DNA of 64,000 nt from Candidatus Rhodoblastus alkanivorans (GTDB lineage: Bacteria; Pseudomonadota; Alphaproteobacteria; Rhizobiales; Beijerinckiaceae). A model generated the notes under the pieces. It had not been told where the DNA came from, ran no database searches, and saw only the letters and a program-made list of their open reading frames with translations. The DNA is taken from NCBI RefSeq assembly GCF_022760755.1, contig NZ_JAIVFP010000001.1, positions 3,328,001 through 3,392,000 on the forward strand, in the 5' to 3' direction. Both the position numbers and the translations under genes were made by a program. Each line of letters starts with the position of its first letter. The first letter of the stretch is position 1. Below, one piece after another: positions 53,627 to 61,133 of the stretch.

Positions 53627-56415
53627 TTCTCCTGTTTGCGCAGGAGCAGCCAGCTGACCAGGATCAGCGCCGGCGGGAACAGCGACAGGATCACGAGATG
53701 GCGCGCCAGGTCAACGAAGCCGAGACCCTTGGTGAAGGCGCCGACCGAGATCGGCAGAAAATAGGTCATGGGGAACAAAGCGCCCAGCACGCGACCGAAG
53801 CCGGTGATCGAGGACGCCGGGATGGACATGCCGGCGAACATGCTCGCGGGCAGGATGGTGAGGATGACCGTGCCGAACAAAGCCGCGATCTGGGTTGTGG
53901 TGAAGGCGGAGACCACCATGCCATAGGCCGTCGTTCCCATGACATAAACGAGCGCGCCGAGCGCGAGAATGCCGAAGCCGCCTTTGAGCGGCACATTGAA
54001 AATGAAGATCGCCATCAGGAACATGACGAGGAAATTGACGAAGGCCAGCGCGATATAAGGCAATTGCTTGCCGAGGAGGAATTCGAGCCGCGTCACCGGG
54101 GTCACATAGAGATTGGTGATCGAGCCCAGCTCCTTTTCGCGCACGATCGCGAGCGCCATCAGAATCGCCGGGATCAAGGCGAGCTGGAGCGCGATGGCGC
54201 CGGGAACCATCGCATAGATCGAATCGAAATCCTGATTGTAACGGAAGCGAGTCTCTATATTGGCGGGCGCGGTCTTGCCTCCCGGGGCCATCCCGCGAAT
54301 GGCGGGATCGGCGAGGAATTGCTGGTGAACGCCCGCGAGATAGCCATGGATCGTCTCCGCGCGGAAGGGCATGGCGCCGTCGATCCACACCGAAACCTCG
54401 GTCGGCCGGCCACGCTCGATGTCGCGGCCGAAACCAGGGGGAATTTCTATGGTGGCGCTGACCGCGCCGCCTTTCAAGCGGTTGCGCAGGTCGGCGGCGT
54501 CGCGGATCGGCTTCTGTTCGAGAAAATAGGCGGAGCCGCGGATTTCGCTCGAATAGGCGCGACTCAGGAAGGAATTGTCACGGTCGAGCACGGCATAGGT
54601 CAGCGAATCGACGTCGGTGGTGATGCCGAAACCGAGCACCAGCAGCAGCACGGCAGGGCCGAGCAGCGCGTAGCCGAGGCGGATCGAATCGCGCGACAGC
54701 TCCAGTATCTCGCGGATCGTATAGGCCATCATCCGGCGCCAGCTGAAGGAGGGATTTCGCGGCGGCGTCGCGGGCGCTGCGAGGCGCGGCGGCTCGGCCG
54801 CGGCCTCCTCGTCGCCGCGCGCCCCGGCCTGCTCCAGATATGAGATGAAGGCGTCTTCCAGATTGTCCGCGCCTTTCGCGGCGGCGAGGTCCGACGGCGC
54901 GCCGGTGGCGAGAATGCGTCCGGAATCCATGAGCGAAATCCGGTCGCAACGCGCCGCCTCGTTCATGAAATGGGTCGAAATGAAAATGGTGACGCCGCTT
55001 TCACGTGAAAGCTCGATCAACAGCCGCCAGAATTCGTCGCGCGCCACCGGATCGACGCCCGAGGTCGGCTCGTCGAGGATCAGCAGTTCCGGCTTGTGGA
55101 CCAAAGCCACGGCGAGCGCGAGGCGCTGGCGGACTCCGAGCGGCAGGTCGGCGGCAAGCGCGCCCCGGTAATCGTCGAGGCCGAAGCGCTCGGTCAATGT
55201 GGCGATCTGGGCCCGCGCCGCCGCGCGCGGGAGGTGGAACAGCCGGGCGTGGAGGTCGAGATTCTGCTCGACCGTCAGCTCTGTATAGAGCGAAAAGCCC
55301 TGCGACATATAGCCGACACGGCGGCGCGATTCCATGCCGCCCGCCTCCATGGTCTGGCCGAACAGGCGCGCCGTCCCTTCGCTCGCCGGCAGCAGGCCGG
55401 TGAGCATTTTCATGGTCGTGGTCTTGCCGCAGCCGTTGGAGCCGAGGAAGCCGAAAATCTCGCCCCGCCCGATGTCGAGATCGACATGATCGACGGCGAT
55501 GAAATCGCCGAAGCGGCGGGTCAGGCCCCGGGCGGAGATCACCGGCCCGTCGCTGTCCGCGCGGCGCGGCGGAATGTCGAGCTTTTTCGCCCGCGCCCGT
55601 TCGGCCTCGGGCAGCAGCGCGACAAAGGCCTCCTCGATGCTGGCGGCAGCTCCTTTTCCGCTGGCGGCAGCTCCTTTTCCGCTGGCGGAAGCTCCTTTTC
55701 CGCTGGCGGCGCCTGCCTGCGCCTTGACCTCGGCGGGGGCGCCGGCGGCGAGGATTTTGCCGGCGTGAAGCACGATCAGGAAATCGAAACGCTCGGCCTC
55801 CTCCATATAGGCGGTCGCCACCAGCACGCTCATCGGCGTCGCGGCGCGTTGTCTCATGCGCTCGACCAATTCCCAGAACTGCCGACGCGACAGGGGATCG
55901 ACGCCGGTGGTGGGCTCGTCGAGGATCAGGAACTCGGGATCGTGGATCAGGGCGCAGCACAGACCGAGCTTTTGCCTCATGCCGCCCGACAGCTTGTTGG
56001 CGGGGCGGTCGGCGAAGGGCGCGAGGCCGACGTCGCGCATGAGCTGGGCGGAGCGCGCGGTTCCTTCCGCCCGACTCTGGCCGAAAAGCCGGGAGAAGAA
56101 ACGGATGTTTTCCGCGACGGTGAGATCGGGATAGAGATTCCTGCCGAGGCCCTGCGGCATATAGGCGATGCGGTGGCAGGCCTCGTCGCGAAAGCCGGAA
56201 TCGGCGATGTCGCCGCCCAGAACCTCGACGCCGCCATCCTGCAGGGCCTTGGCGCCGGCGATCAGGCCCAGCAGGGTCGATTTGCCGACGCCGTCCGGCC
56301 CGACGAGGCCGACCATGCAGCCGGCGGGAATGTCGAGCGACAGGCCGTCGAGCGCGCGGGTCCGGCCATAGGCATGGCGCAGATGGCGCAGGCGGACGAC
56401 CGGGTCCGCATTCAT
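53623..56415 (-). CDS. rbbA: RbbA-type fused ABC transporter (two ATPase domains + permease)
   Basis: 930 residues. First NBD with Walker A GPDGVGKS (39-46) and LSGGMRQKLGL; second NBD with GSNGCGKTT near 323 and EPTSGVDP; permease from about 570 with a helix, periplasmic domain and five helices (EKELGSITNLYVTPVTRLEFLLG). The linker has three SGKGAxA repeats encoded by 21-bp tandem units. The E. coli relative associates with ribosomes, but transporter function with the adjacent HlyD protein and permease is likelier here. Confidence 0.9.
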   Translation of the reverse strand: MNADPVVRLRHLRHAYGRTRALDGLSLDIPAGCMVGLVGPDGVGKSTLLGLIAGAKALQDGGVEVLGGDIADSGFRDEACHRIAYMPQGLGRNLYPDLTVAENIRFFSRLFGQSRAEGTARSAQLMRDVGLAPFADRPANKLSGGMRQKLGLCCALIHDPEFLILDEPTTGVDPLSRRQFWELVERMRQRAATPMSVLVATAYMEEAERFDFLIVLHAGKILAAGAPAEVKAQAGAASGKGASASGKGAAASGKGAAASIEEAFVALLPEAERARAKKLDIPPRRADSDGPVISARGLTRRFGDFIAVDHVDLDIGRGEIFGFLGSNGCGKTTTMKMLTGLLPASEGTARLFGQTMEAGGMESRRRVGYMSQGFSLYTELTVEQNLDLHARLFHLPRAAARAQIATLTERFGLDDYRGALAADLPLGVRQRLALAVALVHKPELLILDEPTSGVDPVARDEFWRLLIELSRESGVTIFISTHFMNEAARCDRISLMDSGRILATGAPSDLAAAKGADNLEDAFISYLEQAGARGDEEAAAEPPRLAAPATPPRNPSFSWRRMMAYTIREILELSRDSIRLGYALLGPAVLLLVLGFGITTDVDSLTYAVLDRDNSFLSRAYSSEIRGSAYFLEQKPIRDAADLRNRLKGGAVSATIEIPPGFGRDIERGRPTEVSVWIDGAMPFRAETIHGYLAGVHQQFLADPAIRGMAPGGKTAPANIETRFRYNQDFDSIYAMVPGAIALQLALIPAILMALAIVREKELGSITNLYVTPVTRLEFLLGKQLPYIALAFVNFLVMFLMAIFIFNVPLKGGFGILALGALVYVMGTTAYGMVVSAFTTTQIAALFGTVILTILPASMFAGMSIPASSITGFGRVLGALFPMTYFLPISVGAFTKGLGFVDLARHLVILSLFPPALILVSWLLLRKQEK
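55639..55701. repeat. Three 21-bp tandem repeats in the RbbA-like gene
   Basis: Unit GCTGGCGGCAGCTCCTTTTCC at 55639-55659 and 55660-55680, and a third copy with one change at 55681-55701; a fourth partial unit follows. It encodes repeated Ser-Gly-Lys-Gly-Ala in the linker between the two ATPase domains, in frame. Confidence 0.9.
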
Positions 56416-57655: not shown

Positions 57656-58585
57656 ATGCCCGATCTGCATGATGTTGTCGATGAGATCGCCGAGAAGATG
57701 GGGCAGCGCGAAGACCGCGGCGCGGTCGCGACCTATATTCCCCAGCTTGCCCGCGTCGACCCGCGCCATTTCGGCATCGCGGTCGCGACCGCCGACGGGA
57801 CGCTCGCCTGCGCCGGGGACAGTGAAATCCCCTTCTCGATCCAGAGCATTTCCAAGGTCTTCACCCTGACTTTGGCTTTGGGCGTCGTGGGCGATTCGCT
57901 GTGGCGGCGTGTCGGCCGCGAACCGTCCGGCAACGCCTTCAACTCCATCGCTCAGCTCGAACTGGAAAAGGGCGTGCCGCGCAATCCCTTCATCAACGCC
58001 GGCGCGCTGGCGGTGACCGACGTGATCCTGTCCGGCCATCCGCCGCGCGAGGCGCTCGGCGAGATCCTGCGTTTCATCCGCTTCGCGGCGCAGGACGATT
58101 CCATTTTCATCGATGAGGCGGTGGCGCGTTCGGAAAAGGCGACCGGCTTCCGCAACGCGGCGCTCGCCAATTTCATGAAGAGCTTCGCGGTTTTGCAGCA
58201 CCCGGTGGACCATGTGCTGGGAACCTATTTCCACCATTGCGCCATCGCCATGACCTGCCGCCAGCTCGCGCTGGCCGGGCGCTTCCTCGCCCAATCGGGG
58301 CGCAATCCGGACACCGGCTTCAGCCTGGTTTCGCCGGAACGCGCGCGCCGCATCAATGCCTTGATGCTCACCTGCGGCCATTATGACGGCTCGGGCGAAT
58401 TCGCCTTTCGCGTCGGCCTGCCGGGAAAAAGCGGGGTCGGCGGCGGCATTCTGGCCATAGCGCCGGGACGCGCCTCGATCGCAGTGTGGTCGCCCGGCCT
58501 CGACGCCGCCGGCAATTCGCATCTGGGCCGCATGGCTTTGGAGATTCTGGCGCACAAAATGAAATGGTCGATCTTCGGCGATTGA
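57656..58585 (+). CDS. glsA: Glutaminase (class A beta-lactamase-like fold)
   Basis: 309 residues; hydrolyses glutamine to glutamate and ammonia. [13 protein letters not shown] carries the catalytic Ser-x-x-Lys; [23 protein letters not shown] and [26 protein letters not shown] are family signatures. No signal peptide. It lies between the exporter operon and the TetR gene with which it converges. Confidence 0.95.
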
Positions 58586-58589
58586 GCCT

Positions 58590-59333
58590 TCAGCCCGCGG
58601 CCACGCGCTCCCTCAGGAACAGGCGCGCCAGAGCGCGGATTTCGCTTAAGACTCCCTCGCCCTCCCCCGCATTGCCCGCCGCCATCTTGAAGATCAACTG
58701 CAGAACCCGGGCTTTGGTCTCGACCTCGTCCGCCGGCAGCTTCGGATTGATCGCGGCGACCGCCTCGGCGAGCCGGTCGTGCAGGACCGCGCGCAATTTC
58801 CCCCTTTGGGCGCCACCGACGCTGCGCGCCTCGATCAGGACCAGCGCCGCCGCGCGTTGCGCGCCCCAGGCGAGGGCGTGTTCGACCAGGGCGTCGGCAA
58901 AAGCGTCAAGCGGCATATTCCGCGCAGCGCGCTCCAGCCCCGCCAGCGCCCCGTCGAGCCGCTCGGCATAGCGCTTGAGCAAAGCGTCGGCCAGTGTTTC
59001 CTTGGTCGGGAAAAAACGATAGAGCGAGCCGATCGCGGTCCCGGACCGCACGGCGACCTCAGTCATGGTCACCGCATCATAGCCCTGCTGTGCGAAGAGA
59101 GCGCCGGCGGACTCCAAAATCGCGGCGACCCGCAGGTGACCGCGCCGGCGCTTTGGCTCGGCGCCTTCGGATTTGGGCTCGGCGCCTTCGGATTTGGGCT
59201 CGGCGCCTTCGGATTTGGGCTCGGCGCCTTCGGATTTGGGCTCGGCGCCTTCGGATTTGGGCTCGGCACCTTCGGATTTGGGCTCGGCACCCTCCGTTTT
59301 CGCTTCCGCCTCTTCGATGAGCTTGTCCGACAT
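58590..59333 (-). CDS. TetR-family regulator with a seven-unit EGAEPKS repeat at its N-terminus
   Basis: 247 residues. Residues 13-61 are seven units of (T/S)EGAEPK, giving an acidic/lysine tail, followed by the TetR DNA-binding domain (HLRVAAILESAGALFAQQGYDAVTMTEVAVRSGTAIGSLYRFFPTKETL, about 65-112) and a helical C-terminal ligand domain. The helix-turn-helix of normal length starts only after the repeat, so the tail is an addition. Two palindromes between it and the divergent YecD-like gene are likely operators. Confidence 0.9.
   Translation of the reverse strand: MSDKLIEEAEAKTEGAEPKSEGAEPKSEGAEPKSEGAEPKSEGAEPKSEGAEPKSEGAEPKRRRGHLRVAAILESAGALFAQQGYDAVTMTEVAVRSGTAIGSLYRFFPTKETLADALLKRYAERLDGALAGLERAARNMPLDAFADALVEHALAWGAQRAAALVLIEARSVGGAQRGKLRAVLHDRLAEAVAAINPKLPADEVETKARVLQLIFKMAAGNAGEGEGVLSEIRALARLFLRERVAAG
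59151..59297. repeat. Seven 21-bp tandem repeats inside the TetR gene
   Basis: Seven in-frame units encode TEGAEPK then SEGAEPK six times. Most units are identical, with core TTCGGATTTGGGCTCGGCGCC on the plus strand; the unit nearest the start codon has diverged. Near-identity indicates recent slippage or amplification. Unit length keeps frame. Confidence 0.95.
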
Positions 59334-59349
59334 CGACCTTGACTTTTAC

Positions 59350-59387
59350 GAGGATATCCTCAAATTCATAAATACGAGGGTATCCTC
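59350..59387. promoter_or_regulatory. Paired palindromic operators for the TetR regulator
   Basis: GAGGATATCCTC (59350-59361) is a perfect 12-bp palindrome; GAGGGTATCCTC (59376-59387) differs at one base. Each is preceded by AC. Centres are 26 bp apart, in the divergent space between the TetR start and the YecD-like gene. Two-site arrangement is typical of TetR autoregulation. Confidence 0.75.
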
Positions 59388-59445
59388 TCATATTTTCGCC
59401 ACGCCAGCCAGTTCCGGCGCGGCAAATTCTTGCCAAAGACCCGCG

Positions 59446-60018
59446 ATGATCACGCTCGATCCGAAATCCGCCGCGCTGGTCCTGATCGACCTCCAGAACG
59501 GCATTGTCCAGACGCCCACCGCCCCGCATTCCGCGCCGGAAGTCGTCATCCGCGCCAGATCGCTCGCCACGCGTTTCCGGCAGAATGGCGCGCCGCTCTT
59601 TCCCGTTCGCGTCGCCTTTGCGCCGGATTTCGCCGATGCGCCGCGCCAGAAGGTCGATGCGCCGATGCAGCTTCCCGCCGGCGGTCTGCCGCCCGGCTGG
59701 AGCGATCTGGTCGAAGGCGTCGCGGCGCCGGGCGATATCGTCGTCACCAAGCGCCAATGGGGCGCCTTCCACGGCACGGAGCTTGAGCTCCAACTGCGGC
59801 GACGCAGCGTGAAGACACTGGTCCTCGGCGGGATCGCCACCAATTTCGGCGTCCAATCCACCGCCCGCCAGGCCTGGGAGCTTGGGTTCGAAGTGGTGAT
59901 CGTCGAAGACGCCTGCGCCTCGCGCGCGGCCGAACTGCACGACTTCGCGATCCGCCAAATCCTTCCCCGGGTCTCACGGGTGACGACCAGCGTGGATGTG
60001 GTCTTCGCCACGGCATGA
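59446..60018 (+). CDS. YecD-like isochorismatase-fold protein without the catalytic Cys
   Basis: 190 residues from the ATG at 59446. Isochorismatase fold with Asp15 (LIDLQNG) and Lys102 (VTKRQWGAF) of the triad. The position of the nucleophilic Cys is Gly135 in GGIATNFGVQSTARQAWELGF, the pattern of E. coli YecD and isochorismatases proper, not nicotinamidases. Divergent from the TetR gene, so probably under its control, and overlapping the AbrB-family gene by 4 bp. Substrate unknown. Confidence 0.85.
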   Translation: MITLDPKSAALVLIDLQNGIVQTPTAPHSAPEVVIRARSLATRFRQNGAPLFPVRVAFAPDFADAPRQKVDAPMQLPAGGLPPGWSDLVEGVAAPGDIVVTKRQWGAFHGTELELQLRRRSVKTLVLGGIATNFGVQSTARQAWELGFEVVIVEDACASRAAELHDFAIRQILPRVSRVTTSVDVVFATA

Positions 60019-61133
60019 GCGCGCGGCGAAATTTCTCGTTCCGCGACAGCGCCGTCCCGACGCAATGGGCGGCGCTGATCGCCCTCACCCTGCTGCTCAG
60101 CGGCGTTCTGATCGCCCTGCGCCTGCCTGCCGGCCTGATGCTGGGCGCGATCGTCGCCGCCGCGGCCATTTCCAATTTCGACGGCAAAACCCACGTTTCG
60201 TCGCGGGCGTTCATCATGGCGCAGGCGGCGATCGGCGGCATGATCGCGCAGAAAATGACGCCGGCGATCCTGCATGAAATGGCGCGGGACTGGCCGCTCT
60301 TCATCGCCGCCGCCTTCTCCGTCGTGGCGGTGAGCGGACTGTTCGGCTGGCTGCTGACCAAATGGCGCCTGTTTCCGGGAACCACCGCGATCTGGGGCGC
60401 CCTGCCCGGCGCGGCTTCCGCCATGGTCGTCATGGCCGACGCCTATGGCGCCGACATGCGCCTGGTCGCTTTCATGCAATATTTGCGGGTCCTCCTCGTC
60501 GCTTTGGTCGCCAGCCTGATCGCGCGGTTCTGGGCGCCGGGCGCGGGCGCTGGCGCCGGCCCTCTCGCCCATTTCTTCGCGCCGGTCGCCTGGCCCGCCT
60601 TTGCCGTGACGCTGGCCGTTCTACTCGGAGCCGCCTTTGTGGCGCAGCGTCTGCGCATCCCCGCCGGCCCGCTGTTGCTGCCGCTCTTCGTCGGCGCCCT
60701 GGCGCAGGACTCAGGCCTGTTCGCACTTGAGCTTCCGCCCCGGTTCCTGGCGCTGAATTACGCCATTCTCGGCTGGTGCGTCGGACAGCGCTTTTCGCGC
60801 GCAATCCTGCTGCACGCCTTCAAAGCTCTGCCCGCGATCCTCGGCTCGGTCGTGGCGCTGATCGCGCTGTGCGCCGGGCTCTCCGTCATCCTCGCGGCGA
60901 TCACTCACAAGGACCCGTTGACCGCTTATCTCGCGATGAGCCCGGGCGGGATCGACGCCGTCGCCATTATCGCGGCGTCCGCCAAGCTCGATCTGCCCTT
61001 CGTCATGGCCTTGCAGGCGGCGCGGGTGCTCATGGTCATCCTCATCGGCCCCGGCGTCGCGCGCTTCCTCTCCGGCGCCGCGCCCGCGGCGAGCACCATG
61101 TTGGCGGGCGATGACGACCCGGCGATTGATTGA
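60015..61133 (+). CDS. AbrB-family membrane protein (TIGR03082 type)
   Basis: 372 residues with about ten helices in two similar halves. LPAGLMLGAIVAA, PGTTAIWGALPGAASAMVVMADAYGADMRLVAFMQYLRV and LAMSPGGIDAVAIIAASAKLDLPFVMALQAAR are the duplicated signature loops of the family named AbrB or (misleadingly) ammonia monooxygenase. Transport is likely; substrate unknown. Coupled to the YecD-like gene. Confidence 0.85.
   Translation: MSARRNFSFRDSAVPTQWAALIALTLLLSGVLIALRLPAGLMLGAIVAAAAISNFDGKTHVSSRAFIMAQAAIGGMIAQKMTPAILHEMARDWPLFIAAAFSVVAVSGLFGWLLTKWRLFPGTTAIWGALPGAASAMVVMADAYGADMRLVAFMQYLRVLLVALVASLIARFWAPGAGAGAGPLAHFFAPVAWPAFAVTLAVLLGAAFVAQRLRIPAGPLLLPLFVGALAQDSGLFALELPPRFLALNYAILGWCVGQRFSRAILLHAFKALPAILGSVVALIALCAGLSVILAAITHKDPLTAYLAMSPGGIDAVAIIAASAKLDLPFVMALQAARVLMVILIGPGVARFLSGAAPAASTMLAGDDDPAID

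Follow-up and report, generated by a model that had tools for sequence, protein, structure and literature searches.

A TetR-family repressor gene with a seven-unit acidic repeat tail and paired operators facing a divergent hydrolase gene in Candidatus Rhodoblastus alkanivorans

Within a 64,000-nucleotide stretch of Candidatus Rhodoblastus alkanivorans (contig NZ_JAIVFP010000001.1; hereafter the window, whose positions are used throughout), a tetR-family repressor gene encoding 247 residues was identified on the minus strand at 58590-59333 from its open reading frame, a Pfam TetR_N match and the helices of an AlphaFold model. The Pfam profile (PF00440) matched residues 72-118 (E 1.2e-14; 54.2 bits, cut-off 24) across profile positions 1-47 of 47, identifying a TetR-type helix-turn-helix. 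Further, the model comprises nine helices spanning residues 63 to 245, with core blocks at pLDDT 89-98, corresponding to the all-helical TetR fold. Fold comparison with the PDB placed TetR-family entries at the top, including 6yj2 (E 9.6e-6) and 3mvp; TM-scores by query length were modest, at 0.36-0.57 among the 50 matches listed, and a profile search against structures returned 3bni as its best match (E 2.6e-23). Since both searches gave generic TetR matches, no ligand is suggested by them. Among the 14 NCBIfam models listed, none for a named TetR subfamily scored above its cut-off, the best being ScbR_bind_reg (50.1 bits versus 150).

From its N-terminus, the protein consists of a non-repeated tail start, MSDKLIEEAEAK (59298-59333, minus strand, from the translation), an array of seven units reading TEGAEPK(SEGAEPK)x6 (residues 13-61; 59151-59297, minus strand), a basic arm, RRRGHLR, and the helix-turn-helix. 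Tandem Repeats Finder (TRF) reported the array at 59155-59288 with a period of 21, 99% matches and a score of 261, and together with the unit listing and the translation this bears out the original prediction of a 49-residue (S/T)EGAEPK tail encoded by a nearly identical 21-bp repeat. That prediction had also placed 49 residues ahead of the helix-turn-helix; this figure holds for the repeat itself, whereas 61 residues (12 + 49) precede the arm and the Pfam match begins at residue 72. The first unit encodes TEGAEPK and units 2-7 encode SEGAEPK. Expansion of the array looks recent, given that the DNA of units 3-6 is identical and that units 2 and 7 differ from these synonymously only; unit 1 diverges more at the DNA level, its first residue included. 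The 61 residues before the arm carry a net charge of -9. AlphaFold placed no helix before residue 63 and gave mean pLDDT values of 52-59 for the ten-residue blocks of residues 1-50, low values which suggest that the tail is disordered. A mobile or multi-copy origin of the repeat was rejected, the 147-bp array matching one place only in the genome.

Divergent from tetR, on the plus strand, lies a gene for an isochorismatase-type hydrolase (59446-60018; PF00857, with NCBIfam PRK11440 above its cut-off), which is likely the regulated gene. Its end is overlapped by 4 bp by the start of a gene for an AbrB-family membrane protein (60015-61133, plus strand; PF05145, TIGR03082), and the two are likely co-transcribed. 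To place this organization in a wider context, we drew on a family-level search of 397 genomes, in collections holding one genome per species, of which 35 possessed a relative at E <= 1e-18; among the 37 matches listed, 30 loci, the window's own included, were available and examined. The divergent hydrolase gene adjoins tetR in 29 of these 30 loci (the exception being L066), and an AbrB-family gene accompanies the hydrolase gene in 10 of the 30, within a 1.5-kb flank.

Two palindromic operators separate tetR from the hydrolase gene, as originally predicted for the divergent promoter: operator 2, GAGGATATCCTC (59350-59361), which is proximal to tetR, and operator 1, GAGGGTATCCTC (59376-59387), neither of which is assigned to a strand, at a centre-to-centre distance of 26 bp. 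Operator 1 was delimited by its palindrome, the consensus, the pair scan and a shuffle control. Pairs resembling GAGGnnnnCCTC, matching at no fewer than 13 of 16 positions (a limit chosen after the scores were seen) and spaced 25-29 bp apart, were detected in 29 of the 30 loci, window included; at the remaining locus, L049, the pair scan found none, and degenerate forms are visible by eye. In the window, both operators match at all eight outer positions (16/16), and not one of 200 dinucleotide-shuffled versions of the upstream region attained this score. Across the 29 of 30 loci to which this control was applied, 0/200 shuffles attained the observed score in 22 loci, 1/200 in six and 150/200 in L049. 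From the conservation of these sites, we infer that TetR dimers would bind the palindromes and be released by a ligand. A search of the 4.35-Mb genome for the exact operator 12-mer gave a single location, and an 18-bp degenerate consensus with at most one mismatch recovers operators 1 and 2 only. TetR therefore looks local, and a wider regulon was rejected at this threshold. Allowing two and three mismatches yielded 46 forward and 39 reverse rows in all, among which weaker targets may lie; the reversed pattern gave 12 and 13.

Closer inspection of the control region indicated putative promoter elements on the hydrolase strand. In 28 of 29 loci, again with L049 as the exception, a TTG-hexamer directly precedes operator 2, represented in the window by TTGACT (59339-59344, plus strand), a good candidate -35 element of the hydrolase gene. 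In 13 of 29 loci, TATAxx follows 18 bp past the TTG hexamer, and elsewhere variants such as TAAATC and ACTATC are found; the window itself has a weak -10-like AATTCA. With this spacing, operator 2 would fall in the promoter spacer. The putative tetR start also bears on the operators. An in-frame tetR ATG overlaps operator 2 in 26 of the 28 loci outside the genus (20 wholly inside it and six across its edge), some of these frames holding further in-frame starts as well. Where the two overlap, the opening residues of the protein (of the M-R-M-S-S-Q-K type) would follow from the sequence of the operator. This overlap has been lost in both genomes of the genus that hold tetR, in which the operator-2 ATG is now ATA, the palindrome is perfect, and a single in-frame ATG remains ahead of the arm, 28 bp further along. 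A stop codon also breaks the former tetR frame in the window.

The second of these genomes, G006, contains the only close tetR orthologue in the genus (74% identity; search of 11 genomes, counting that of the window), the remaining genus matches being at most 43% identical, and a contig scan gave eight loci, among which the G006 contig is the sole close relative. Its N-terminus, MSEQKNQVAETIAEGAEPKRRRGHLR, contains one EGAEPK unit followed by RRRGHLR as in the window, within a tail of 19 residues and net charge -2, and its operators are likewise spaced 26 bp apart. The final unit of the window and the single unit of G006 both end in AAG adjoining CGCCGG, a common junction by which the last unit looks ancestral. 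At the place occupied in the window by a glutaminase gene downstream of tetR (57656-58585), the G006 locus has a short frame that by eye resembles the gene start only (L003, about 1432-1482), and a scan of this locus for the glutaminase gave no match.

Outside the genus, tails before the arm comprise 13-26 residues in 27 relatives and carry net charges of -1 to +4, positive in 21 of the 27. No repeat array was seen in the tails of the relatives in alignment A1, whose 28 members have 13-26 residues before the arm, their start codons having been picked by the analyst. The original statement that TetR proteins normally begin with the helix-turn-helix was thus too strong for this family. As leads, a scan with no shuffle control was extended to nine loci on plasmids or in other families (L118-L126) and gave best pairs of 13-16 of 16 in all nine and a hydrolase match in six. 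Two plasmid genes, Gluconobacter oxydans GOX_RS00375 and Paroceanicella profunda FDP22_RS21065, share the divergent TetR-hydrolase layout, with the hydrolase detected by tblastn in both; unlike the window, they have no repeat tail at the N-terminus, and their operator-like pairs match less well (13 and 14 of 16, respectively, with no shuffle control). By annotation, the second gene encodes a DHA2 transporter in Gluconobacter and an AbrB-family protein in Paroceanicella. Among the open-licence literature matches listed, titles and abstract openings mention neither a TetR with a repeat tail nor this operator family.

Given its pair of palindromic operators, flanked by tetR and a divergently transcribed gene, the organization looks like a divergent, autoregulated module of the Tn10 type, as far as can be judged from sequence. 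The operator sequence of Tn10 differs from those of the window, and to our knowledge Tn10 TetR has no repeat tail. The target also differs, being TetA in Tn10 and here a hydrolase with an AbrB-family membrane protein. What the two share, going by a modelling paper, is a TetR-type autoregulator, a divergent target and two operators in a shared control region (PMC3037858). A flexible N-terminal extension adjoining the DNA-binding domain is also a feature of SimR, a TetR-family repressor of Streptomyces antibioticus. Going by its title, the SimR-DNA study of Le et al. 2011 reports that this extension takes part in minor-groove binding; N-terminal extensions of TetR proteins can thus affect how DNA is bound. 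Since the window tail is acidic and repetitive, a comparable role is unlikely here.

Taken together, we consider it probable that the locus represents an autoregulated divergent TetR-hydrolase module in which the tail has grown from one to seven units in a near-neutral manner. One TetR dimer would sit on operator 2, flanked by the hydrolase gene's -35-like and -10-like hexamers, and a second on operator 1, near the expected hydrolase transcription start; together they would shut off the hydrolase and tetR genes until a ligand released the repressor; this ligand might perhaps be the substrate of the hydrolase or a related compound. Members of the family have a short tail at the N-terminus, followed by a basic RxRG arm. 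In the window's lineage, one EGAEPK-encoding 21-bp unit would have become seven through slippage or unequal recombination, a direction to which the single congener and the repeat-free relatives point. The outcome would be a long acidic tail, probably disordered and near-neutral, which would weaken DNA binding slightly at most. Neutral slippage is the leading explanation of the tail expansion. Against this reading of the module stands the weak -10-like hexamer of the hydrolase gene in the window, and selection could account for a tail charge more negative than in any of the 27 non-genus relatives.

A second array in the window is relevant to the origin of the first. In the linker of an RbbA-type ABC transporter open reading frame, 3.4 kb from the tetR array, 3.4 copies of a 21-bp unit encode ASGKGAA-type repeats (55639-55710). 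Of the 17 matches listed for this gene, 12 genus loci were fetched; one was the window itself and two, G006 included, were unreadable at the linker, and the array was absent from all nine loci readable there. Seven of these nine are likely orthologues at 75-85% identity, and two are paralogue-like at 56-57%. The two arrays thus share a 21-bp period, an in-frame position and absence from genus relatives, and differ in that one lies in a transporter linker and the other in a transcription-factor tail. As an unrelated neighbour has an array of its own, expansion of tetR needs no regulatory cause. A broader sample of 464 kb (20 stretches and the window) was also surveyed with TRF, the rows of which merge into 68 arrays. 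As raw shares, periods divisible by three were found in 53 of these arrays and in 10 of the 12 with scores of 100 or above, and the tetR array ranked fourth by score. In-frame expansion in flexible segments therefore seems common in this genome, and if so the tetR array again calls for no regulatory cause; this claim of a genome-wide habit stands on two arrays, since lineage-specificity was tested for the tetR and RbbA-type arrays only. The sample also includes 880 bp of perfect 13-bp repeats (L092:10677-11556; 67.7 copies) in an open frame of about 2.1 kb, which yields a PSDQPVRPTRPTN-type repeat.

The original interpretation was that a variable tail might tune affinity or cooperativity between the two operators. 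Its premise stands insofar as tail length differs between lineages, from one unit in G006 to seven in the window, whereas the link from tail to operators is not supported: pairs spaced 25-29 bp apart occur in 29 of the 30 loci whatever the tail, and the one-unit congener has the same 26-bp spacing. A rheostat or cooperative interaction between the operators was accordingly rejected as the leading explanation, as neither the operator pair nor its spacing tracks tail length. The most sensible functional form of the rheostat idea is an electrostatic brake, whereby the acidic tail would compete with DNA for the arm and recognition helices and repeat number would set the strength of this competition, a proposal we regard as unlikely. 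A tail of charge -9 could weaken binding by electrostatics, and this charge lies directly before RRRGHLR, where the congener has -2 and the 27 non-genus relatives have -1 to +4; the tail is also predicted to be without structure, and the perfect outer arms of both window operators would suit a weakened protein. Speaking against such a brake, 16/16 pairs occur alongside short tails too (L003, L045, L047, L060 and L067), and the neighbouring RbbA-type linker has its own array.

Less probable still is that the 21-bp array, prone to slippage, sets the length and charge of the acidic tail and thereby provides a heritable and reversible dial on TetR affinity, the departure of the tetR start from the operator in this genus having freed both operator and N-terminus to change. 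Cooperative tuning, in which the tails of dimers on operators 1 and 2 would touch or repel one another and repeat number would adjust cooperative binding, appears very improbable. In its favour, the window does contain two operators at a 26-bp distance, a long and flexible tail could span the gap between them, and some TetR-family proteins, QacR and CgmR among them, bind longer operators as two dimers according to a published account (PMC4150764). Nevertheless, 28 of the 29 loci with such pairing and spacing are short-tailed, acidic tails would be expected to repel rather than bridge, and for Tn10 tetO1/tetO2 the modelling paper reports no indication of cooperativity (PMC3037858). Of similarly slight probability is that the copy number of seven stems from faulty assembly of a nearly perfect array: the 147 bp of near-identical units approximate a short-read length and there is one genome of the species to go by, but units 1, 2 and 7 are distinguishable from the others, and the genome assembles into 5 contigs with the 880-bp perfect array, which suggests that long reads were used.

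Returning to near-neutral expansion as the preferred reading, the finding on its own leaves knowledge of TetR regulation unchanged and amounts to a modest curiosity, open to testing, in a TetR that is ordinary in other respects. The window and its congener nonetheless form a natural pair, with seven units and one, equal operator spacing and the same divergent gene, through which one may ask if a TetR repressor is affected by how long its disordered tail is. The antisense strand of the array is also open, forming a plus-strand frame (59173-60018) that continues in frame into the hydrolase gene, probably as a side effect of a repeat unit whose length is a multiple of three.
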